Shown: in pieces, positions 2,095-12,503 of the stretch
How positions within the stretch are numbered: position 1 is the stretch's first letter
Layout of the letters: each line of letters begins with the position of its first letter
Assembly: GCA_946479475.1 (NCBI GenBank)
Contig: CAMLGG010000157.1
Coordinates: 1 to 12,503 of the forward strand
Source of the DNA: an uncultured Ideonella sp.
Lineage (GTDB): Bacteria; Pseudomonadota; Gammaproteobacteria; Burkholderiales; Burkholderiaceae
Reading direction: 5' to 3'
Length of the DNA stretch: 12,503 nt
Made by a program: the position numbers and the translations under genes
Notes under the pieces: generated by a model
Databases searched by the model: none
What the model was told of the DNA's origin: nothing
Seen by the model: only the letters and a program-made list of their open reading frames with translations

Positions 2095-2529
2095 TCAGTC
2101 CTTCTTCTCGAAATCGATCGCCGCCGAGTTGATGCAGAAACGCTCGCCGGTGGGCGCCGGGCCGTCGTCGAAGACATGGCCCAGGTGCGTGCCGCATCTG
2201 GCGCAGCGCACCTCGACGCGCGTCATGCCGTGGGTGTGGTCGATGACCCGCTCGATCTTGCCGTCCTCCACGCCCTGCCAGAAGCTGGGCCAGCCGCAGC
2301 CGGCGTCGAACTTGGTGTCGGACTGGAAGAGCACCTCGCCGCAGCCTATGCACTTGTAGACGCCGTTTTCCCAGTGGTCCCAGAAGCGGCCGGTGAAGGC
2401 CCGCTCCGTCGCGGCCTGGCGCGCCACGGCGTACTGGGCCGGGCTCAACTGGGCGCGCCATTCGGCATCCGTCTTGTGGACGGCGTAGCGCGGGTCGTCG
2501 TGGCGATGGGGGGTGTCGTCGGCGCTCAT
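2095..2529 (-). CDS. msrB: Peptide-methionine (R)-S-oxide reductase MsrB
   Basis: A 144-aa single-domain cytosolic enzyme that reduces methionine-R-sulfoxide in proteins, normally recycled by thioredoxin. All key residues are visible. The structural zinc site is two CxxC pairs, C60/C63 (CIGC) and C109/C112 (CARC). The catalytic cysteine is C132 in [10 protein letters not shown], and a resolving cysteine C78 lies in GCGWPSF. The [12 protein letters not shown] segment (113-124) is standard. Length is normal, with a short polar N-terminus. ATG 2527-2529 lies 70 bp after the citrate-synthase-like gene. A weak -10-like TACACT (complement of 2560-2565) lies 30 bp upstream with no good -35, so it may be transcribed either from there or with the upstream operon. 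No Shine-Dalgarno is obvious. Confidence 0.97.
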
Positions 2530-2599
2530 GGCAGGGCTGGTCGGGTGAAGTTCGGCGCCAGTGTAGGCACCGGCGCGCCGCCTGCCCCGGGCGGGGTCT

Positions 2600-3400
2600 T
2601 CAGGCCGGCCAGCGCCTGGGCGCCGGGCCTTCGTAGGCGACGTGCTCGCAGGCGATGGGCAGCACCGTCCGCTCCGGCTTCTCGCTCGCCTCGATGTAGC
2701 AAGGCGGCATGCCGGCCAGGAAGGCGGGGAACATGAAGTGGTAGTACTCGCGGGCCGTCAGGCCGAGGTCGAGGCCGAGTGCGGCCGCCAGTGCGCCGTA
2801 GTTCATGCGCCAGCGCCAGCGGCCCTCGACCAGGAAGCGCTCGAGCTCGAAGGCGAGCTCCAGGTGCGGCCCTTGGTGCAGGCCCAGCTCCCGGGCCAGC
2901 GTCATCATCGGCCCGATGCGCTCGTCGCCGTTCGCGATGGGCCGGCCGTAGCCCGCGATGGCGCGGTGCACGACAAGCTCTTCGCGCACGCATTCGTCCA
3001 GCGTGCCGCCCTGGCTGAGCGCCTCGCGGGTGCGAAGGAAGAAGTCCGCCGCGCGGATGTCGATGCCGCGGCCGTAGATGCTCGCCTCCGACACGGCGAG
3101 CGCGGCGGCCATGCCGAGGTTGCCGGTGCTGCGGGTCGTGCCGGCGAGCGCGGCGACCCGGTTGTTCCAGATGCGCGCGTCCGGATAGCTCGTGCAGACC
3201 CACAGCGCATGCAGCATGCGCAACTGCGGCGCGGTGAAGCGGCGACCCGTTATCCCGAAGGCATAGAGCGCGAGCCAGTCCATGTCCTTGAATTCGGCAT
3301 GCAGGTCGTGGCCCCTGAAGACGGCCTGGCGGCCGACGAAGCACGCGCCCATGCGGGTGCGCAGGCGGCCGGCGGCTTCGTGGAGAAGGAAGGGATTCAT
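2600..3400 (-). CDS. Citrate synthase / citryl-CoA lyase-fold protein B, canonical catalytic residues absent
   Basis: A 266-aa protein whose whole length reads like a short citrate synthase of citryl-CoA-lyase size (about 260 aa). By-eye matches: [20 protein letters not shown] (30-49) to the N-terminal 'GYDL--L' region; [19 protein letters not shown] (76-94) to the 'R--AST' region; [13 protein letters not shown] (150-162) to the 'GFGHR-YK--DPR' motif; [19 protein letters not shown] (169-187); and [11 protein letters not shown] (200-210) to 'VDFYSG---ALGIP'. The three residues used by citrate synthases do not survive in this alignment. The 'GPxHGGA' histidine lies in YGRGIDIRA, the 'GFGH' histidine is R153, and the catalytic Asp is not present (N200 or a neighbour). 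A strong GAGGAGG (complement of 3408-3414) lies 7 bases before the ATG, inside the preceding gene, whose stop it overlaps (ATGA). The fold call is good; whether it is an enzyme, a new activity or a regulatory subunit is open. Confidence 0.8.
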
Positions 3401-4215
3401 GCGAGCGCCTCCTCGGGCCGGTCCTCGAGATCAAGGGCGAAGAAGGGAAAGTTCTTGTGGCCGAGCCGGCGTTGCTCGAGCGCGTGGGCGGCGGCGCCGG
3501 GCAGTCGCAGGAGCAGGTGGAGCATCTCGCCCTGCTCGGGGTCGAAGCCCAGGTCATGCAAGGCCGCGGCCGCCAGGCCGGTCAGCGCCAGTGGCGCGCC
3601 AGCCTGCGCTTCGATCGCCTCGCGCCGGCTGGCCAGCCAGTGCAGCGCCGGGAAGGACGCGGGATCCGGCCGGGTGAGCGCCACCAGGCCGTCCAGCAGC
3701 CGAAGGACGAAGGTCGCGGCCCGGCGTGCATGCGGTTCGAAGCCGGCACGGTGCGCGGCTCCCGGCCAGATGCCGGGCCGCCGGCTCGGCGCTTCGAGGG
3801 CCTGCCTCCAGAGGGCCAGGTCGGTGCCGCAACGAGCCCACAGCCCCATCGCGTCGTGCACCTCGCGAGACCCGCCCGACTCGCCGGCACCGACTGCGAG
3901 CGCCGCCATCAGGCCGGCGGCTGCGGGCGAGCCGCCGACGCCGGCGCACATCGCCGCGTGCACCGCCGGATCGCGCGGGCCGGGATTGGCCAGTGCGAGC
4001 GCCAGGGCATCCAGCATGCGGACCTGCACGGGGCGCGGCGGCTCGCCGCGGAACAGCAGGAACAGCATGTCTGCCCAGGACGCGCGGCCGAGCATGTCGG
4101 TGGCGACATCGAAGCCATGGCAGCGTGCGCTGCGCGTGGAGAAGGCGTCATCGGGCTCGGGCTCCTCGTGCCAGATCCGCGTGCGGACCGGCTGGATCTT
4201 CGGGTTCGCGCTCAT
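3397..4215 (-). CDS. Citrate synthase / citryl-CoA lyase-fold protein A
   Basis: A 272-aa citrate-synthase superfamily protein of citryl-CoA-lyase length. Residues 34-60 (GFDVATDMLGRASWADMLFL and on to RGEPP) match the family's 'GYDL-DLIGR-SFA--FLLLRGELP' start. LDALALALANPG (68-79) and GSPAAAGLMAALAVGAG (95-111) match the central helices, and ALHDLGFDPE (218-227) with LLRLPGAAAHALEQ (235-248) matches the C-terminal 'LLDLGFP---LFALARLPGLLAHALEE'. At the 'GPLHGGA' position it has GESGGS, so the histidine is lost. GFEPHARR (158-165) may keep one histidine (H162). The catalytic Asp position of 'NVDGAL' is T212. It starts 7 bp after the SDR gene and ends overlapping protein B, so the two are surely co-translated. 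Family assignment is firm; a normal citrate synthase reaction is unlikely. Confidence 0.82.
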   Translation of the reverse strand: MSANPKIQPVRTRIWHEEPEPDDAFSTRSARCHGFDVATDMLGRASWADMLFLLFRGEPPRPVQVRMLDALALALANPGPRDPAVHAAMCAGVGGSPAAAGLMAALAVGAGESGGSREVHDAMGLWARCGTDLALWRQALEAPSRRPGIWPGAAHRAGFEPHARRAATFVLRLLDGLVALTRPDPASFPALHWLASRREAIEAQAGAPLALTGLAAAALHDLGFDPEQGEMLHLLLRLPGAAAHALEQRRLGHKNFPFFALDLEDRPEEALA

Positions 4216-4222
4216 GGCGGGC

Positions 4223-4972
4223 TCACAGCAGGCTCATGCCGCCGTCGACCGCCAGTTCCTGGCCGACGACGTAGGAAGCGTCGTCGCTGGCGAGGAACAA
4301 GGCGACCCGGGCCACCTCGGCCGGCTCGCCGAAGCGCCGGATGGGCGACTTGCGTTCGATGTCCTGCACGACCGCGTCGCGCGCCTCGCTTGGCAGGCCC
4401 AGGCGGCTCCAGATGGGCGTGGCGATGGGTCCCGGGCTGATCGCGTTGACGCGGATGCCGCGGCCGATGAGCTCCAGCGCCAGGCTCTGCACCAGCGAGC
4501 GCACGGCGGCCTTGCAGGCCGCGTAGACGCTGAAGTTCGGCGAGCCCAGCTGGTTGGCGATGGAGGTGGTCACGATCACCGAAGCGCCCCGGCGTAGCAG
4601 CGGCAGCGCCTTCTGGATCGTGAAGAACACGCCCTTGAAGTTGACGCTTTGCATGGCGTCGAACTGCGCCTCGGTGACGGCTTCGAGCGGGGCGGGCTGG
4701 GCCAGGGCGGCATTGACGAAGAGCACATCCAGCGACCCCAGCCGCGACTTCACCTGCCGCATGAGTTCTTCGATGTCGGGCAGGCTGCCGGCGTCGCTGC
4801 GCAGCGCCAGGATGCGGCCGTCCGAGCTTCGCTGGACTTCGTCGAGCGTGGCCGGGTCCCGCCCGGTGACGGCCACGCGGGCGCCTTCTTCGCAGAACAG
4901 CCGGGCCGCAGCCAGGCCGATGCCGCTGTTGCCGCCGGTGACGAGGGCGGTCTTTCCGTTGAGCTTGTTCAT
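4223..4972 (-). CDS. Short-chain dehydrogenase/reductase (SDR) family oxidoreductase
   Basis: A 249-aa classical SDR, a soluble NAD(P)-dependent oxidoreductase interconverting a ketone and an alcohol. Visible motifs: cofactor loop TGGNSGIG (12-19); R38 after the second strand (VTGRD), which favours NADP(H); D60 (RSDAG); a VNAA variant of NNAG (86-89); and the catalytic set N111 (VNFKG), S137 (TTSIAN), Y150 and K154 (YAACK). SPGPIATPIW (179-188) and the C-terminal VGQELAVDGG (236-245) are standard. The gene starts 13 bp after the ThDP enzyme's stop and ends 7 bp before the first citrate-synthase-like gene, so it belongs to their operon. The substrate is unknown; a hydroxyketone or 2-oxo compound made by the ThDP enzyme would fit the context, but that is inference. 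Confidence 0.93.
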   Translation of the reverse strand: MNKLNGKTALVTGGNSGIGLAAARLFCEEGARVAVTGRDPATLDEVQRSSDGRILALRSDAGSLPDIEELMRQVKSRLGSLDVLFVNAALAQPAPLEAVTEAQFDAMQSVNFKGVFFTIQKALPLLRRGASVIVTTSIANQLGSPNFSVYAACKAAVRSLVQSLALELIGRGIRVNAISPGPIATPIWSRLGLPSEARDAVVQDIERKSPIRRFGEPAEVARVALFLASDDASYVVGQELAVDGGMSLL

Positions 4973-4985
4973 GGGAGGTTCGGCT

Positions 4986-6830
4986 TCACTTCACGGCGCC
5001 CAGGGCCTTCAGGCGCTGGATCATGGGAGGGACTTCGTCGCGGTCGATGCGCACGTCGACCAGGGTCGGGCCGCGGCGGGCCAGGATGGCCTCGAAGTCG
5101 AGCGCCTGCAGGTCCTCGGGCGACTCGACCACGTGGCCGGGCACCCCCATGGCCTCGGCCACGGCGGCGAAATCGACCTTCGGCAACTCGAAGCCCACGG
5201 GCTCCGCCTTGGCGAGGCGCTGGCCGTGCATGACCATGCCGTAGGCGCTGTCGTTGAGCACGAAGTAGACGACCGTCAGGCCCTCGGCCGCCGCAACGCC
5301 TATCTCCTGGCCGCTCATCAGGTAGCTGCCATCGCCGGTGATGCAGACGACCGGGCAGCGCGGGTTGCCCCGCGCGATCCCCACGGCAGCGCCGATGGCC
5401 CAGCCCATGGGCGCGAAATCCATCATCACGCGCAGCCAGTGGGCTGTGCCGCTGCGGCGCTCGGCATCGCCGGTGCGGCGGCCACCCGTGCCCCCGCCCC
5501 CACCCCCGCTGCCGCGCCGGTTGCGCGGCTGCAGGTAGTGCACAGCCCAGATCATGCTGTTGCCGGTGTCGGCGACGAAGCGCGTGTTCGGCGGGCAGCG
5601 CCGCGAGAGCTCGCGCATCAGCCGCTGAGGCTTGATCGGCGTGGCGTCGCTGTCCACCTGCTCCGGCGCGTGCAGCGCGAGGTTGGGGTTCTGCGCATCG
5701 GGGTTGTGAATGGGCAGGCTCACCACGTTGCGGGCGTCGTTGGCGGCGAAGCCATCGATCAGCAGGCGGCACACGGACAGGATCCGGCCGCGCACGTGCA
5801 GCCGGGCCATCGGCGAGCGCATGAGGTGCTCGTCGGATGCATCGACGTGGATCAGGCGGCCGTTCATCAGCGCAGCGTTCCAGCCCCCGCTGGCCAGCTC
5901 GCTGAAGGCCGTGCCGAAGGCGACGACGAGGTCCGCGTGGCTCTTGAGCAGGGCCTCCGCGCTGGCGTGGCCCCCGAAGCCGAAGACGCCGTGGAAGGCA
6001 CGGTGGCGCGGGTTGACGAGGCCCTTGCCGTCGGGCGTGGTGATGAACTGCGCGCCGGTCAGGTCGACCAGCCGCATGATCGTGTCCACGGCCTCGCCGC
6101 AGCCGTCGCCGATCAGGAAGACCGGCGATTCGGCGCGCTCGAGCTCGCCGCGCAGCGCGCGCACCGCGTCGAGGTCGACCATGGCCGGTTTCGCATGGAC
6201 GAAGGCGCTGCGGTCGCAGTCCTCGCTGGGCGCAGCCACCGTGCTGCGCAGGATGTCCACCGGGATCGACAGGTGCACCGGCCCCTGCGGAGCCTGGAAG
6301 GCGCGCATCAATGCATGGATCAGCTTGGTCTCGAGCTGGTCGGGATGCGTGACGAGCGAGTTGTAGCGGGTGCAGTGGCGCAGCATGCCCACCGCGTTGA
6401 TGCCGGTGCAGCTGGATTCCTGCAGGGCGCCGCGGCCGAAGTTGCGCAGCGGTGGCTGGCCGGTGATGACCAGCATCGGCACGTTGTTGGCATAGGCCGT
6501 CGCCACGCCGGTGATCAGGTTGGTGGCGCCTGGGCCGGAGGTCGCGATCGCCACGCCGATCCTGCCGGTCTCACGTGCGTAGCCATCGGCCATGAATGCC
6601 GCGCCGGCCTCGTGCCTTGCCACGACGGGTCGCGGGCCGCCTCGCCGCTCGCTGCGGGCCAGGGCGTTGTAAAGAGGCTCAATGGCGCCGCCGGGGACGC
6701 CGAAAACCGCCTCGATGCCGAGGCGTCCCAGGTAGGTGACGATGAGTTCCGCTGCCTCCATCGTGGGGGCTGCATCGGGGGCGAAGGCCGGGTCGGGCAA
6801 TGCCGCCGCCGCTCGCTTCAGACTGTCCAT
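4986..6830 (-). CDS. Thiamine-diphosphate-dependent enzyme, acetolactate-synthase-like large subunit
   Basis: A 614-aa three-domain ThDP enzyme of the acetolactate synthase/2-oxoacid decarboxylase family. The N-terminal pyrimidine domain (about 25-195) carries VFGVPGGAIEPLYNAL (42-57) and the activating glutamate E74 in ARHEAGAAFMADGYAR. A central domain follows (about 215-360). The C-terminal domain holds the ThDP-magnesium motif GDGS (499-502) through N526-D527. It is complete and catalytic-looking, so it should decarboxylate a 2-oxoacid and possibly ligate the product to an aldehyde or ketone. The substrate is not readable. An odd low-complexity insert, about residues 438-461 (RRGSGGGGGGTGGRRTG), sits between NSMIWAVHYL and FAPMGWAIGAAVG. 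The open frame runs to a TTG at 6845, but ATG 6828-6830 is chosen because GGAG lies 9 bases upstream. First gene of the four-gene operon; no small regulatory subunit gene follows as in true ilvBH. Confidence 0.9.
   Translation of the reverse strand: MDSLKRAAAALPDPAFAPDAAPTMEAAELIVTYLGRLGIEAVFGVPGGAIEPLYNALARSERRGGPRPVVARHEAGAAFMADGYARETGRIGVAIATSGPGATNLITGVATAYANNVPMLVITGQPPLRNFGRGALQESSCTGINAVGMLRHCTRYNSLVTHPDQLETKLIHALMRAFQAPQGPVHLSIPVDILRSTVAAPSEDCDRSAFVHAKPAMVDLDAVRALRGELERAESPVFLIGDGCGEAVDTIMRLVDLTGAQFITTPDGKGLVNPRHRAFHGVFGFGGHASAEALLKSHADLVVAFGTAFSELASGGWNAALMNGRLIHVDASDEHLMRSPMARLHVRGRILSVCRLLIDGFAANDARNVVSLPIHNPDAQNPNLALHAPEQVDSDATPIKPQRLMRELSRRCPPNTRFVADTGNSMIWAVHYLQPRNRRGSGGGGGGTGGRRTGDAERRSGTAHWLRVMMDFAPMGWAIGAAVGIARGNPRCPVVCITGDGSYLMSGQEIGVAAAEGLTVVYFVLNDSAYGMVMHGQRLAKAEPVGFELPKVDFAAVAEAMGVPGHVVESPEDLQALDFEAILARRGPTLVDVRIDRDEVPPMIQRLKALGAVK
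5485..5507 (-). repeat. G-run tract with predicted G-quadruplex form, inside the ThDP gene
   Basis: The coding (minus) strand carries three runs of five G (complements of 5503-5507, 5497-5501 and 5491-5495) and one of three G (5485-5487), with loops of 1, 1 and 3 bases. That is a textbook parallel G-quadruplex pattern and would be present in the mRNA too. It encodes the glycine run of the ThDP enzyme's insert. Repeated G runs are also prone to slippage, though the reading frame is intact in this copy. Confidence 0.6.
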
Positions 6831-6914
6831 TTCGTACCGCTCCAAACAATCAAGAGAAAGCCTCGGCCACGCCCGGGCCGCAGCGTCGCGCTCGAGGCAG
6901 GACGCTGCCGGCCG

Positions 6915-6974
6915 GCGAAGAAGAATTCGCGGCGCAAAGGCGTGGCCACGCGGGGCACCGGATGGCGCCGCGAA
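6915..6974 (-). promoter_or_regulatory. Inverted repeat with U-rich tail: possible leader structure or terminator
   Basis: Perfect 10-bp arms TTCGCGGCGC (6926-6935) and GCGCCGCGAA (6965-6974) flank 29 bases that include a 12-bp perfect palindrome GCGTGGCCACGC (6940-6951). On the minus strand the stem is followed by TTCTTCTTC (complement of 6917-6925), so it resembles a weak intrinsic terminator. An alternative 5-bp hairpin, GCGAA (6915-6919) with TTCGC (6926-6930), shares bases with the large stem and would exclude it. An 11-bp direct repeat AAAGGCGTGGC (6936-6946 and 6973-6983) overlaps. It may end receptor transcripts or attenuate the ThDP operon. Confidence 0.35.
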
Positions 6975-7155
6975 AGGCGTGGCGGGGTGATCTCCCTGAA
7001 TGCGAACTGGCGGGCCGTGTCCTCGCGCTAGGACCCCGGCGCGTCATTCACCGATGGCGGCCCGGGCGGAGAGCCCTGGGTGCAGGCGATCACCGCCCCT
7101 GCATGGCGCAGGGGCGTGGGTCACCGGCCATCGGCGGCTGTAGCCGCGCGCATCT

Positions 7156-7180
7156 AATTTGTTACTTCGACGAACAAATT
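7156..7180. promoter_or_regulatory. AT-rich operator-like palindrome upstream of the ThDP operon
   Basis: Perfect 8-bp arms AATTTGTT (7156-7163) and AACAAATT (7173-7180) flank 9 bases that contain their own small mirror, TTCG-A-CGAA (7166-7174). Only 7 of 25 bases are G or C in a window of about 70% GC. The size and symmetry fit the operator of a dimeric regulator such as a TetR, MarR, GntR or LysR protein. No regulator gene is adjacent in the window. Confidence 0.45.
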
Positions 7181-7206
7181 GTCACGTTTGCGGCGAACCA
7201 CTGCAA
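7178..7206 (-). promoter_or_regulatory. Candidate promoter of the ThDP operon
   Basis: On the minus strand TTGCAG (7201-7206) and GACAAT (7178-7183) are spaced by 17 bp, matching sigma70 boxes at 3 of 6 and 4 of 6 positions. The palindrome at 7156-7180 overlaps the end of the -10 box and the expected start point near 7171, as a repressor site would. If used, the leader to the ThDP ATG is about 340 nt. Weak by sequence alone. Confidence 0.28.
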
Positions 7207-7259
7207 GGGCGTGGACGTGACTGAATCCGCGCTTTCAGAGCCAGAGGATGTCGGGATCT

Positions 7260-9353
7260 CTAAAGCCGGTACTCGGCCGTGACGAAGATCGCGCGCCCGG
7301 CCTGGGGCAGGTCGTTCGGGATGGAGACGAAAGGCGTGCCGAAGGGACTGGGCTCGCGCACGTCGGCATCGAAGAGGTTGCGCGCAGTGAGGACGATGGA
7401 CCACTGCGGGTTCAGCTCGGAGCGCAGGCTCAGGTCCACGGTGGTGTAGTCGGCGACGGCCGGCCGGATGTCCAGGGCCTGCCGTTGCCGGCCGGCGACC
7501 CAGTTGACCTGGGCGTCGGCCTGCCAGCCGCGGCTGGGCTGCCAGTCCACCCGCAGGTGAGCGTGCTGGCGCGGCGACATGCCCGGGTCCTGACCAGTCT
7601 GCTCGTCCACGGAATGCTGCCAGGCGTAGTTGGCACCGACGCGCCACTGCCGGGCCGGCTCCCACTCGGCTTCGAGCTCCACGCCCTTGCCCGTCTGCTC
7701 GCCCTGGTTCTGGTAGGTGAGGGTGCTGTCGAGCCGGATCAGGTCGCTCAGGCGGTAGCGGAAGACGTTGATCCCCAGGCGGGTGGCGGCATCGGCCTGC
7801 CAGGACAGCGCGGCCTCGATCGTGCGCATCCTCTCGGGCGTCAGCGAGGCGTTGCCGTTGGACGCGGGGTTGTTGATGGCATAGAGCTCGTTGAAGGACG
7901 GCGCGCGGAAGGCCGTGCCGTACAGCAGCTTGGCGGTGACGTCGTAGGCTGCCTCCCAGACCAGCGCCACGCGGGGATTGGTCGTGCCGCCGAAGTCCGA
8001 GTAGCGGTCGTGCCGGACGCCGGCGGTCAGCGCCCAGTCCCGCGCGATGCTCCATTCGTCCTGCACGTAGACGTGCTCGACGCTGCGCTGGTGCGGCACG
8101 ATGAACGGCACGGTGTGGGTGACGTCCGTCACGTCCTCGAACGAGCCGGTGCCGATGGGGCTGAAGTCGGGGTTGAAGTTCTTGGTCTCGCGGATCCGGT
8201 ACAGGTCCTGCCGGGTGTAGCCGGCGCCCAGCCTGATCCGATGGCCCGCCAGGCCGGTGTAGACGGCCGTGGCCTCGAGGCGGCCGGTTCGTTCCCACTT
8301 CTCCGGGTTGCCGATCATGCCGTCCTCGAAGAAGCCGCCGCCGAGGTTGGTGCCGGCCGGGAAGAGCACGAGGCGCGAGTGCTCCTCGTACTGGGCGGCG
8401 TAGGCCCGCAGCAGCAGGTCCCAGTCGGCGACGGGCAGGGCCGGGCGCCAGCTCAGGTCGGCGTCCACGTGCTCGCTCGAATTGCGGCCGGCGGGATCGA
8501 GCGCCTGGGCCACGCCGGCGCCCGAGCCCTGGTCGAACACGCGCTTGTAGCTGGTGCGCAGGCGCCAGCCGCCGGCCGACGCGTCCAGCGCCGCGTTGAC
8601 CATCCGGTAGCCGTCGTCCATCGGCCCTGGTGCATGCGACACCGGCGGGACGCCGAACGGGCCGAAGATGGCGTCCAGGCCGGTCTGCGCGTCGGCGCTC
8701 ACCGTGCGTTGCGCGCCGTCGGTGCGGCTGTAGGCGAGGTGGCCGGCGACTGCCACGCCTTCCCATTGCCCGCCCGCCTGCCACCAGCCGGCGGCGCTGT
8801 CGAACGACCCGGCGCGCAGGCCGACCTGCTGGCCGGCAATCTCATCCGCGCGCTTGGTCTGGATGCTGATGACGCCGGCATAGGCGTCTGCGCCGTACAG
8901 GGCCGAGCCCGGGCCGCGGATGACCTCGATGCGGGCAATGTTCTCCACCGGCATGCCGCCCCACTGCACCCCGCGGTCGCCGGCGTAGGCGCTCGTCTGC
9001 GGCTGGCCGTTGATCAGCAGAAGGACCTGGGGGTTGATCAAGGTGCTGCGCACCCCGCGGAAGATGTAGATGGGCGAATTGACGACGGGCGAGCGCGACA
9101 CGTGCAGTCCGGGCACCGTCTCGAGCACGTCGTCCAGGTCGGTGGCGCCCATGGCGCGGATGTCCTCCGCCGTGATCACCGTGGCCACCGAAGGCGCGCG
9201 GGCCACCGGCACGCGGGAGCCGGTGGCGATGCTGACGTGCGACTTGTCGCCGAAGGACATCGCGAGCTCTTCCTCCTCCGAGACTTCTGCGCCACGCGCG
9301 GTCATCACCAGGGTCGTCGCCAGGCCCAGGACGGCAAAGCGGGCAAGTCGCAT
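7260..9353 (-). CDS. TonB-dependent outer membrane receptor
   Basis: A 697-aa receptor, normal size for the family, that imports a scarce ligand across the outer membrane using TonB energy. Residues 1-22 are a signal peptide (MRLARFAVLGLATTLVMTAR and GA). A short linker EEEELAMSFGDKSHVSIATG (26-45) leads to the plug domain (about 45-168), with VATVITAEDIRAMGATDLDD (56-75), VPGLHVSRS, FRGV and IEVIRGPGSALYGADAYAG (142-160). The rest is a beta-barrel with alternating aromatic strands, including YGTAFRAPSFNELYAIN and a terminal strand ending AEYRL. The ligand cannot be read; the plug style is not diagnostic. ATG 9351-9353 is preferred over the upstream ATG at 9405-9407 because the latter lies inside a good -10 box and the shorter form starts straight at the signal peptide. 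It lies 139 bp after the hybrid kinase gene and likely works with it. Confidence 0.93.
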   Translation of the reverse strand: MRLARFAVLGLATTLVMTARGAEVSEEEELAMSFGDKSHVSIATGSRVPVARAPSVATVITAEDIRAMGATDLDDVLETVPGLHVSRSPVVNSPIYIFRGVRSTLINPQVLLLINGQPQTSAYAGDRGVQWGGMPVENIARIEVIRGPGSALYGADAYAGVISIQTKRADEIAGQQVGLRAGSFDSAAGWWQAGGQWEGVAVAGHLAYSRTDGAQRTVSADAQTGLDAIFGPFGVPPVSHAPGPMDDGYRMVNAALDASAGGWRLRTSYKRVFDQGSGAGVAQALDPAGRNSSEHVDADLSWRPALPVADWDLLLRAYAAQYEEHSRLVLFPAGTNLGGGFFEDGMIGNPEKWERTGRLEATAVYTGLAGHRIRLGAGYTRQDLYRIRETKNFNPDFSPIGTGSFEDVTDVTHTVPFIVPHQRSVEHVYVQDEWSIARDWALTAGVRHDRYSDFGGTTNPRVALVWEAAYDVTAKLLYGTAFRAPSFNELYAINNPASNGNASLTPERMRTIEAALSWQADAATRLGINVFRYRLSDLIRLDSTLTYQNQGEQTGKGVELEAEWEPARQWRVGANYAWQHSVDEQTGQDPGMSPRQHAHLRVDWQPSRGWQADAQVNWVAGRQRQALDIRPAVADYTTVDLSLRSELNPQWSIVLTARNLFDADVREPSPFGTPFVSIPNDLPQAGRAIFVTAEYRL

Positions 9354-9402
9354 GATCAGGAGGACCGCTGCAGCGGGCGGCGAGGCTGTGGAAGGCGCGC
9401 GA

Positions 9403-9431
9403 AGCATAGGGCGGCCCCACAGCGCTTACAA
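9403..9431 (-). promoter_or_regulatory. Candidate sigma70 promoter of the TonB receptor gene
   Basis: On the minus strand TTGTAA (9426-9431) and TATGCT (9403-9408) are separated by exactly 17 bp, each matching the consensus at 4 of 6 positions. Transcription would start near 9396, giving a leader of about 40 nt to ATG 9351-9353. It lets the receptor be expressed independently of the kinase gene upstream. No T-tailed terminator was found between the two genes; a 6-bp hairpin at 9471-9489 lacks a T run. Confidence 0.45.
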
Positions 9432-9492
9432 CCCGAGATCGCCGCCGTTGACAGGCTTCGTCGCGCGGCAGCGTCAGGGCGCTTGACGCGCG

Positions 9493-11526
9493 TCACGGCG
9501 GCGCGTCCACCCAGCGCAGCGCCAGCTGCTCGGTCAGCACGGCGGTGAGAAGCTCGTGCTGCACGGGCTTGGCCAGGAAGGCGTTGGCACCGCCTTCCAG
9601 GCAGCGGCGGCGGTCCTCCGGCGAAGCATTGGCCGACACCGCGACGATGGGCAGCCGGCGCGTCGCTTCTTCCGCTCGCAGCCGGGCCGTGGCCTCCAGG
9701 CCGTCCATCACCGGCATGCGGATGTCCATCAGCACCAGGTCGGGCTGCCCGGCGCGGACGCGCTCCAGGGCCTGCGCCCCGTCGTGGGCCTGGTCGACCT
9801 CGAAGCCCTGGCGCTCCAGCAGGTCGCGCAGCAGGTGCCGGTTGGCTGCCACGTCGTCGACGACCAGCACCCGGCGCCGGTGGCCCTCGTAGCGGCGCCT
9901 GGCCACGCGGGGCGGCGGCTCGGCCGCGCGTTTCGGCTCTTCGATCGATTCGGGGAAGTCGAGCACGAACCAGAAGCGGCTGCCCACGCCGTGCCGGGTG
10001 TCGACGTGGATCTCGCCGCCCATCAGCTCGACCAGCTGGCGGCTGATCGCCAGGCCGAGCCCGGTGCCCGCGGCGCGGTGATGCGCCTCGCCGGCCTGCT
10101 CGAAGGGCTGGAACAGGCGCCGCAGCGCCGACGGCTCGATGCCCACTCCGCTGTCGGACACCTCGAACCGCACGCGCGCGCCGCCGGAGGGCGTGCCGGG
10201 CTCCGGGCTGACCGACAGGGTGACATGGCCGCGGTCGGTGAACTTCACCGCGTTGCCCAGCAGGTTGATGAGCACCTGGCGCAGGCGCTTCTCGTCCGCC
10301 ATCACCGCGGCCGGGAGCTCGGGATGGGCCAGCACGTTGAAGGCCAGGCCCTTCTCCTCGGCCTTCAGACTGACGATGTCGCCGACGCCCTGCAGCAGGG
10401 GACGCAGGACCGTCGGCGCGACGAGCAGCTCGGTCTTGCCGGCCTCGATCCGCGAGAGATCGAGGATGTCGACGATCAGCGTCAGCAGGTGCTCGCCACT
10501 GGTCTGGATGTGGTCCAGCCCGGCCCTCTGGCGGCCGGTGAGGTTGCCGTCCATCTTGAGGATCTGGGTGTAGCCGAGCACCGCGTTCAGCGGCGTGCGC
10601 AGCTCGTGGCTCATGCGGGCGAGGAACTCGCTCTTGGCGGCGCTGGCCGATTCGGCCACCTCCTTGGCTTGCTGCAGCTCCCTGGTGCGTTCGCGGACCG
10701 CCTGCTCCAGGCGTTCGCGGTGGTGGCGCAACTCCAACTCGCGCAGGCGCTGGGCATCGAGCATGCGGTTGAAGGCGCGGGCCATCAGCGCGATGTCTCG
10801 CGGACCCAGGTGCGGATCCGCCTGGACCAGCGGGTCGCCTCTCTCCGCCCGGGCCATCACCTCGGACAGGGCGGTCAGCGGCCGTGTCAGGCGGCCGGCC
10901 AGCCAGCGAATCCCCAGCACGAACACCACCGCCACCGCCAGCGACGCGGCCAGGTTGGCCAGGAACACCTGGGCCATCATGCGCCGCAAGGTGCCCTTGC
11001 CCTGGGCCACGCGGACATCGCCCAGCAGCTCGTCGCCCGGCGTGCCGTTCACGTCGAAGGGCGACACCGGCCGGCGCGCGACGACCGGGGCCACGAAATG
11101 CCAGGCCTCGCCGGTCTCGGCGGCCAGGCGTACCTCGCCGGCCGCAGGCAGGCGCGGCCAGTCGGGCGGGGCGGCAGCGTCGCCGCGGGACAGCAGCACG
11201 TGACCGTCGGCGCTGCGCAGCTCGACGCCGATCACGTCGGGGAAGGCCAGCGTCGCCCGGACCGCCTCGGCGGCGTTGTCCGGCGTGGCCGACATCAGCG
11301 CCAGCGTGCCCTGCGAAGCCAGGCTCTGGGCCACCCGCTGGCCCTGCTCGATGAGGGTGGCCCGGATCTGCCGGCTCGCCTGCCAGGAGCTGACCAGCGA
11401 GGACAGCAGGGCCATCAGCAGCACGCCGACGGTGGCGGCCGTGCTCAGCTGCCGCCTGAAGCTGGTGGGCGGCAGGCCATCGACGGGCAGCGGGCGCGGC
11501 AGCAGGGCCTGGAGCATGCGCATCAT
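9493..11526 (-). CDS. Hybrid sensor histidine kinase/response regulator
   Basis: A 677-aa inner-membrane hybrid kinase. Order: TM1 about 29-48; periplasmic sensor about 50-182 (AEAVRATLAFPDVIGVELRS, a CHASE8-like pattern); TM2 about 187-209; HAMP about 210-262; coiled coil about 262-297; HisKA with H307 in SHELRTP; HATPase_c with N425 (NLLGNAVKF), DSGVG (458-462) and GTGLGL (487-492); receiver about 552-672 with acidic D557-D558, phospho-acceptor D601 (LMDIRMP), S631 and K653. All catalytic residues are present. There is no HPt or output domain, and no partner regulator gene is adjacent, so phosphoryl flow must leave through something outside the window. Start: ATG 11524-11526 forms an ATGA with the stop of the binding-protein gene, so the kinase is translationally coupled to it. 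The open frame continues upstream to 11853, but that part mirrors the binding-protein gene. Confidence 0.95.
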   Translation of the reverse strand: MMRMLQALLPRPLPVDGLPPTSFRRQLSTAATVGVLLMALLSSLVSSWQASRQIRATLIEQGQRVAQSLASQGTLALMSATPDNAAEAVRATLAFPDVIGVELRSADGHVLLSRGDAAAPPDWPRLPAAGEVRLAAETGEAWHFVAPVVARRPVSPFDVNGTPGDELLGDVRVAQGKGTLRRMMAQVFLANLAASLAVAVVFVLGIRWLAGRLTRPLTALSEVMARAERGDPLVQADPHLGPRDIALMARAFNRMLDAQRLRELELRHHRERLEQAVRERTRELQQAKEVAESASAAKSEFLARMSHELRTPLNAVLGYTQILKMDGNLTGRQRAGLDHIQTSGEHLLTLIVDILDLSRIEAGKTELLVAPTVLRPLLQGVGDIVSLKAEEKGLAFNVLAHPELPAAVMADEKRLRQVLINLLGNAVKFTDRGHVTLSVSPEPGTPSGGARVRFEVSDSGVGIEPSALRRLFQPFEQAGEAHHRAAGTGLGLAISRQLVELMGGEIHVDTRHGVGSRFWFVLDFPESIEEPKRAAEPPPRVARRRYEGHRRRVLVVDDVAANRHLLRDLLERQGFEVDQAHDGAQALERVRAGQPDLVLMDIRMPVMDGLEATARLRAEEATRRLPIVAVSANASPEDRRRCLEGGANAFLAKPVQHELLTAVLTEQLALRWVDAPP

Positions 11527-12503
11527 GATTCGGGGTACAGCTTGTCGATGCGGTGGGCGCGCAGGTCGAGGTCGACCCCCAGGTGCGCGGCCGTGCGCTG
11601 GTTGGCGGCGACCAGAACGTCGCGCAGCGGGAGCATGCCGCGCGGCGTCCTTCGGCCGGCGAGCGCGTCCTGCGCCGACTGCGCCAGGCTGCGGCCGAGG
11701 GCCGGGTTGTCGGGATACAGCGCGAACAGCGCGCCGCGCCGCACATGGGCGACGTTGCTGGAGCACACGGCGAAGTTGCGCTGCCAGGCCTCCTGCAGCA
11801 CCAGGGGCAGCAGGGTGCTTTCCTCGACCGTGGTCGCGTCCTGCGGGAGCCACACCGCGTCGCGCCGGGGGTCGATGGCGGACAGGACCTCCTGGTAGCT
11901 TCGCAGGGCGCGCTTGGGCTCGTCCGCCTCGATGGCCGCCAGCTCCATCCCGGCGGCCCTGGCGGCATCGGACGCGAGGCGGGCCAGCCAGCCGTTCTGC
12001 TGGGGATCGTGGACCATGAACACGCGTCGCGCGGCCGGCACCATCCGGCGCAGCTGGGCGAACACCAGGGCGGGGTCGGGGGCCAGGCTGTGGACGACGT
12101 AGGCCTGGGCCGGGCCCTCCGGCGCGCCGATCACGCAGCCGGCGACCACGCCGATGGCCCGGTCCAGCGCGGCGGCCGCCTTCAGGCCGCTGCGGCCCAG
12201 CGCGATGACGACCCGCACCTCGCGCCGGCGCAGCTCCTCGGCCAGGGCAGGCGGCGGGCCTTCGCCCCGGACCGCGAAGCCGGGCACGGGCTGGCGCGCC
12301 TGGTCGCGGATGCCCTCGAGGATCGTCGCGAAGACCGAGCGGAAGGGCTCGCCGATGTCGGGATAGAGCACCGCCAGCCCCGCCCCGCCCTCGGTGGCCG
12401 GCGCCGCCCGGGCGGTCGGGGTGCCCGCCCCCGCGCCTGCGCTCGCCAGTGCCGCCAGCATGCGCAGCGCTTGCCGTCGGGACGGGCAGGCGCGGTGTCG
12501 GGG
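11523..12503 (-). CDS. ABC-type periplasmic substrate-binding protein (PF04392-like), 5' end cut by window
   Basis: At least 326 residues are visible, ending at TGA 11523-11525. The body reads as a type I periplasmic binding fold: GLAVLYPDIGEPFRSVFATI, then VRVVIALGRSGLKAAAAL, PAARRVFMVHDPQQN, AVWLPQDATTVEESTLLPLV, FAVCSSNVAHVRRGALFALY. This is the style of the ABC_sub_bind (TrpX-like) family, which binds small ligands such as amino acids. Codons remain open to base 12503, and the segment before Met at 12459-12461 reads PSRRQALRMLAALASAGAGA. That resembles a twin-arginine signal (S-R-R-x-x-L and a weakly hydrophobic stretch), so the true start is probably beyond the window; the internal ATG would delete the twin arginines. 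No permease or ATPase gene is adjacent. The ATGA overlap with the hybrid kinase suggests a sensing role. The ligand is unknown. Confidence 0.85.
   Translation of the reverse strand, partial: PRHRACPSRRQALRMLAALASAGAGAGTPTARAAPATEGGAGLAVLYPDIGEPFRSVFATILEGIRDQARQPVPGFAVRGEGPPPALAEELRRREVRVVIALGRSGLKAAAALDRAIGVVAGCVIGAPEGPAQAYVVHSLAPDPALVFAQLRRMVPAARRVFMVHDPQQNGWLARLASDAARAAGMELAAIEADEPKRALRSYQEVLSAIDPRRDAVWLPQDATTVEESTLLPLVLQEAWQRNFAVCSSNVAHVRRGALFALYPDNPALGRSLAQSAQDALAGRRTPRGMLPLRDVLVAANQRTAAHLGVDLDLRAHRIDKLYPES

Follow-up and report, generated by a model that had tools for sequence, protein, structure and literature searches.

Two overlapping genes, here named A and B, were found to code for citrate-synthase-fold proteins in which the catalytic His-His-Asp triad is incomplete: A has the second His only, and B has none of the three residues. 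They lie in a 12,503-nt stretch of DNA from an uncultured Ideonella sp. (contig CAMLGG010000157.1; this whole stretch is referred to below as the window), in a set of seven co-directional genes on the minus strand, ordered SBP, sensor kinase, TonB receptor, ThDP enzyme, SDR, A and B (Table 1). Judged by these neighbours, the synthesis of a small molecule through a new acyl-CoA or C-C reaction is likelier than citrate metabolism. The genes for the ThDP enzyme, the receptor and the sensor, which were missing from an earlier reading of this DNA made from the sequence only, carry most of the meaning of the locus. Relatives of A and B, where named in databases, are called 'citrate synthase', 'citryl-CoA lyase' or 'hypothetical protein'; such enzyme names misfit a pair that retains, of the three citrate-synthase catalytic residues, one in A and none in B. 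We take the citrate lyase beta chain to belong to a different family from A and B. The Caulobacter 'citryl-CoA lyase' is, in the available text of PMC11005374 and PMC3751524, such a beta chain. The ThDP-A-B locus was not named in the titles and abstract starts of the open-licence literature searched.

Gene set in the window

Table 1. Genes of the set, with their positions in the window
Feature	Position	Strand	Remarks
B, 266 aa	2600..3400	-	citrate-synthase/citryl-CoA-lyase fold; catalytic positions are I113, R153 and G202
A, 272 aa	3397..4215	-	citrate-synthase/citryl-CoA-lyase fold; catalytic positions are S113, H155 (kept) and T212
SDR-family oxidoreductase, 249 aa	4223..4972	-	related SDR in 32 of 80 loci
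ThDP-dependent enzyme, 619 aa, TTG start as called	4986..6845	-	BbmA and CsmA are the best solved relatives; 74/80 loci have a relative
TonB-dependent outer-membrane receptor, 715 aa	7260..9407	-	relative in 70 of 80 loci
Hybrid sensor histidine kinase	9493..11526	-	HAMP, HisKA, HATPase_c, receiver
PF04392-like periplasmic substrate-binding protein (SBP), 312 aa	11523..12461	-	in 57 of 80 loci

The PF04392 match of the SBP scored 22.8 bits, slightly under Pfam's 25.9. The open reading frame listed for the kinase (9493-11853) has its 5′ part inside the SBP gene; judging from the sequence, the likelier start is an ATG at 11526 or 11523, abutting or overlapping the SBP stop codon. A methionine sulfoxide reductase B gene (MsrB; SelR domain) lies downstream of the set and was left out of it. 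The fetched locus closest to the window in gene order and in ThDP sequence (82%) was L034, labelled Vitreoscilla sp. MAG_67. The ThDP, TonB and MsrB genes and the gene at 127-960 showed 71-82% identity between the two, A and B showed 60-61%, and the SDR present in the window was not found in L034. Comparison of window positions 2095-6845 with L034 suggests that SDR-A-B may have been exchanged as one block.

Fold and catalytic positions of A and B

That both proteins have the citrate-synthase fold, as had been read from the letters, was borne out by sequence profiles and by predicted structure: the matches found with Foldseek and VIA were to citryl-CoA lyases, and a citryl-CoA lyase was the best Foldseek match of both models (E 2.9e-8 for A and 1.2e-7 for B). 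Both proteins fell under the NCBIfam cut-offs for citryl-CoA lyase (PRK06224), with best scores of 58 bits against 212 for A and 34 bits against 245 for B. The B model was the weaker of the two (pLDDT 76, pTM 0.70, with low values at the C-terminus and near residues 72-80). Its VIA alignments had high rmsd, the best one 8.0 over 236 residues; the residue positions of B were therefore taken from the profile alignment.

Residues were counted in 308 homologues of A and 204 of B, all distinct, these being the loci described below plus the best-scoring matches listed, so that both sets consist mostly of close relatives. In B, the position of the second catalytic His (His2) was Arg in 204/204 homologues, that of the first (His1) was Ile in 150/204, and that of the Asp was Ala or Gly in 189/204. 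The Arg of the DPR motif (R161) was kept in all 204, as were R29, D74, R76, W78, N79, N80, R81, R153, D159 and E160; these invariant polar residues were chosen by conservation within B alone, not against citrate synthase. In A, His2 is H155 (His in 300/308 homologues), R237 was kept in 304/308, and the Asp position was Ser or Thr in 242/308. The His1 position of A was variable, with Ser in 154, Leu in 44, Tyr in 43 and His in 20 of the 308.

The sequence-only reading had proposed that both proteins lack the triad. This holds for B, where all three residues are gone, and fails for A, in which the H162 suggested as a possible catalytic His was the wrong residue and H155 holds the position intact. 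The Ser at His1 (S113) and T212 at the Asp position of A were placed correctly. For B, the Ile at His1 (I113) and R153 at His2 stood, while for the Asp position, read then as N200 or a neighbour, the alignment gave G202. Conservation of the replacements across homologues, named then as support, was found in B, strongly at His2 and at most other sites. In A, His2 is intact and the His1 replacement is scattered, so that the grounds for refutation given in that reading apply to A in part.

For comparison, 31 further superfamily loci (23 short and eight full-length, including L088) were aligned to one profile. His2 was His in 31/31, and His1 was His in 12/31 (four short, eight full-length). It had been assumed that known lyase-type proteins keep His, His and Asp, but in 19 of the 23 short citryl-CoA lyase relatives (L145-L162 and L088) His1 was replaced by Phe, Ile or Thr in this profile-aligned count, with His2 kept in 23/23; short lyase-like proteins were thus ruled out as canonical. 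Since loss of His1 with His2 kept is common among these proteins, A resembles many of them at the two positions. As far as sequence can tell, the unusual features are the invariant Arg of B and the two-subunit arrangement.

Genetic linkage of A and B

A genome scan returned 216 relatives of B; 79 loci were kept and read which, together with the window, made 80 loci, all of them found through B. A was directly upstream of B in 80/80, including L059, which has N stretches and was also checked by eye. The ATGA overlap of four bases noticed earlier between the two genes was verified, and a four-base overlap was present at 73 of the 80 junctions measured (L059 and L066 were not measurable, and L030 and L036 were counted twice). 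L030 holds a tandem A-B-A-B-B arrangement (6396-10861), so that one B lacks an A partner, and L036 holds two ThDP-A-B sets behind a single TonB receptor (3605-10789). The locus occurs in named strains, such as Methylomonas koyamae, Collimonas humicola and Pelotalea chapellei. The only long reading frame containing both A and B, in L066, was frameshifted between them and was rejected as a natural fusion. With that frame as the query, no A-B fusion was seen among the matches listed (120 of 1758), each of which had the length of one protein (272-293 aa).

Linkage is judged more fairly from genome samples, in which whole genomes of an order were taken irrespective of B, although each order was itself picked for holding a carrier genome. 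They comprised 300 genomes from the order of G002 (the genome of L012, Herbaspirillum sp.) and 117 from that of G003 (the genome of L018, Geobacter sp. OR-1), 417 in total. In the former, B was detected in 14/300 genomes and A (at least 392 bits) in the same 14, with one extra weak A match of 44 bits in G071; in the latter, B was detected in 6/117 and A in the same six. By coordinates, A and B were adjacent in 20/20 positive genomes, and the ThDP enzyme was beside or close to them in 20/20. The divergence of A was correlated with that of B (rank 0.48, partial 0.41, p 0.0003; 47 loci). The earlier suggestion of an obligate A+B unit is thus well supported genetically, by 80/80 loci and 20/20 positive genomes of the 417.

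The ThDP enzyme and neighbouring genes

Neighbours in the 80 loci were tallied from homology-scored reading frames and tblastn. A ThDP relative was found in 74/80; five of the six loci lacking it start at or within ∼1.3 kb of A, which leaves L031 as the one genuine exception. At E 1e-200 or better, 16/300 genomes in the order of G002 had the ThDP type: the 14 A/B genomes, with at most one gene between it and A, and also G068 and G287. Among the genomes from the order of G003, the L018-type ThDP enzyme was present in the same 6/117 genomes as A and B, at about 1 kb or less from A.

Compared with solved structures, the ThDP enzyme of the window scored 270 bits with BbmA, 242 with CsmA and 200 with the acetohydroxyacid synthase (AHAS) of E. 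coli; the L018 type scored 454, 304 and 259 bits, respectively. BbmA is thus the nearest solved relative of both divergent types. The best NCBIfam match of the window enzyme was acolac_lg (297 bits, below the cut-off of 538), and since AHAS models also match, its product could be ordinary acetolactate. A glycine-rich stretch of the enzyme (RGSGGGGGGTGG..., window ∼5433-5534, minus strand) precedes the C-terminal domain and falls in an unaligned gap to BbmA. The available text of PMC12395478 describes CsmA and 'BpmA', the latter presumably the protein deposited in the PDB as BbmA, as homologues of CybE whose products are alpha-hydroxy-beta-keto acids. CqsB3 catalyses the same type of reaction and is followed by a KAS III-like enzyme in the text available for PMC7466098, and CybF is a 3-oxoacyl-ACP synthase in that available for PMC8777810.

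An SDR was found in 32/80 loci, a sulfotransferase in 7/80 and a P450 in 3/80; the P450 gene lies beside A, B or the ThDP gene in L002, L017 and L050. In L002 there is, in addition, another ThDP gene with a sulfotransferase gene after it. In G068 and G287, which have the ThDP gene and no A/B match, a sulfotransferase gene lies beside the ThDP gene (G068) or across the TonB gene from it (G287). Clustering of reading frames revealed no gene family outside the set in more than 9/80 loci, and hence no hint that a KAS III or an inner-membrane importer is dedicated to the set, as judged by clustering only and not by name. At L127 8436-10217 (G089), a partial ThDP relative (about 51-52%) lies beside a Peripla_BP_6 gene; the 19 kb fetched there contained no match to A/B, TonB or SBP.

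Receptor, binding protein and sensor

The TonB receptor was found in 70 of the 80 loci, the PF04392 SBP in 57 and the N-terminus of the sensor in 55; they were not found in 10/80, 23/80 and 25/80, respectively, some contigs being short. The presumed synthase genes are linked to receptor and sensor genes, but the linkage is not universal, the SBP not being found in 23/80 loci. Seven sensors that were compared had a common N-terminal input half, with HAMP in all and sCache_4 called in two. Their outputs differed: GGDEF-EAL in three (two with PAS), a kinase only in two, and a kinase with receiver, Hpt and GGDEF-EAL in two.

The Geobacter TonB and SBP proteins were only ∼33% and ∼24% like the query types. 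The divergence of the ThDP enzyme was correlated with that of the TonB receptor (0.72, 49 loci), but this proved to be mostly driven by Geobacter, and we place no weight on it (without Geobacter: rank 0.19, partial 0.088, p 0.12; 47 loci). Between ThDP enzyme and SBP, a modest correlation remained without Geobacter (partial 0.32, p 0.0007).

Loci with receptor and sensor but without ThDP-A-B

In the order of G002, the SBP type was present in 21/300 genomes, including all 14 A/B genomes. Beyond these, six genomes had it at E 1e-40 or better, two together with the ThDP enzyme and no A/B (G068, G287) and four with neither (G043, G077, G126, G201); G292 had a weak match. In G043, G126 and G077, the TonB receptor, SBP and sensor lie amid unrelated gene families, without ThDP-A-B. 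These receiver-only cases are three loci from genomes of unstated completeness, the contig of G201 being too short to judge. G077, the only one compared with a locus holding the synthetic genes, aligned with Sideroxydans L019 on both sides of a gap (82%, 74% and 84% identity over three blocks), revealing a clean empty site with 487 bases where L019 has ∼4.1 kb holding ThDP-A-B. In a tree of the SBP with midpoint root, in which the bootstrap had not settled, G077 was placed beside L019 and L026 (support 100/99), and the other receiver-only members lay inside well-supported clades of ThDP-A-B carriers, on open forks. The presence of receptor and sensor without ThDP-A-B indicates that perception genes can be kept where the synthetic genes are absent. 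This would be less expected of a degradation pathway than of a signal or a shared chelator.

Possible function of the locus

The locus may be a unit for making, importing and sensing a molecule. We propose, with our confidence evenly balanced for and against, that A and B form an obligate heteromer which joins the product of the ThDP enzyme with an acyl-CoA, and that the resulting molecule is perceived by the linked receptor and sensor. The heteromer, the reaction, its substrates, and the roles of the product as ligand and as signal are what we infer from the data above. By similarity, the ThDP enzyme would form an alpha-hydroxy-beta-keto acid. Gene context and fold suggest that A+B would then couple or transfer an acyl-CoA onto it, giving a C-C or ester product; A+B would take the place held, in the available text of PMC7466098 and PMC8777810, by the KAS III-type CybF and CqsB1 in the cyanobacterin and carquinostatin pathways. 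As to how this might proceed without the Asp base, one may speculate that the beta-keto acid itself supplies the nucleophile, for instance through decarboxylation, and that this acid is held by H155 and R237 of A and the Arg cluster of B. The SDR (by reduction or oxidation) and, in some loci, the P450 or sulfotransferase would tailor the product. The linkage and the receiver-only loci suggest that it would leave the cell, re-enter the periplasm via the TonB receptor and be bound by the PF04392 protein, which would act on the linked sensor (histidine kinase and/or c-di-GMP).

A step further, the locus might represent a new class of bacterial chemical communication: a ThDP carboligase and a citrate-synthase-fold enzyme of two subunits, its active site reinvented, would make a diffusible molecule, which would enter through its own TonB receptor and be read by a PF04392 protein with interchangeable kinase or c-di-GMP sensors, some relatives only listening; we offer this tentatively and consider it rather doubtful. 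Should the scheme of the preceding paragraph hold, an invariant Arg replacing the catalytic His in a heteromer would be new enzymology for the fold, and the locus would point to an unknown molecule that bacteria of several lineages both produce and sense.

Other explanations concern either the role of the whole locus or that of A and B. The enzymes might make a hydroxy-carboxylate metal chelator, with the TonB receptor retrieving the metal complex and the SBP and sensor reporting its arrival. The TonB receptor is indeed most like Cir, BtuB and siderophore receptors, many loci are from Gallionella, Sideroxydans and Geobacter, which are iron-cycling lineages, and the receiver-only relatives are also compatible with xenosiderophore users. 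However, the recurrent genes, as judged by clustering only, include no inner-membrane importer, the sensors have kinase or c-di-GMP modules as outputs, and the list of hosts may mirror groundwater sampling; we consider a metallophore locus unlikely. The direction could also be reversed, with a compound imported by the TonB receptor, detected by the sensor and degraded by the ThDP enzyme, the SDR and an A/B lyase. Lyase-fold proteins are generally reversible, the best NCBIfam match of the window kinase is TorS, under its cut-off, and an SBP with a hybrid kinase is a common nutrient-sensing layout. Such a catabolic role is nevertheless distinctly unlikely: receptor and sensor are kept where ThDP-A-B is missing, no permease recurs in the clustering, and P450 and sulfotransferase genes lie beside A/B in some loci.

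A and B might instead be non-catalytic, serving the ThDP enzyme as regulators that bind acyl-CoA or as scaffolds. The triad is lost in B, the ThDP enzyme is nearly always nearby and the divergences of A and B correlate, all of which would agree with this, and because B has no recognisable citrate-synthase catalytic residue, B at least may be only structural. On the other hand, the many invariant polar residues of B, and the H155 and R237 kept in A, suggest a working site, and G068 and G287 carry the ThDP gene but no A/B. A purely non-catalytic pair thus appears very unlikely.

Comparison with known systems

A and B have in common with citryl-CoA lyase (6hxp; PRK06224) and citrate synthase (PF00285) the fold, the second catalytic His (H155 of A), an Arg (R237 of A) and the Arg of the DPR motif (R161 of B). 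They differ from these enzymes in being two distinct subunits encoded by adjacent genes, and in the triad residues missing, three of three in B and two of three in A.

LuxP-LuxQ and TorT-TorS each consist of a periplasmic binding protein with a hybrid sensor kinase. Here, likewise, a periplasmic binding protein gene adjoins a hybrid sensor kinase gene, and the kinase and receiver parts of the window kinase match models of TorS and LuxQ below the respective cut-offs. Unlike those systems, the present one has a PF04392-like binding protein, includes a TonB receptor and, in some relatives, has a GGDEF-EAL output.

The pathways of the CybE/CqsB3 type (cyanobacterin, carquinostatin) also use a ThDP enzyme, and the nearest solved relatives of the one described here are BbmA and CsmA; any likeness to CybE and CqsB3 is drawn via these solved relatives. 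The pairing of a ThDP enzyme with a partner that uses an acyl-thioester may be shared as well. Unlike those pathways, the locus holds a citrate-synthase-fold pair, and no KAS III-type CybF or CqsB1 was recurrent in the clustering.
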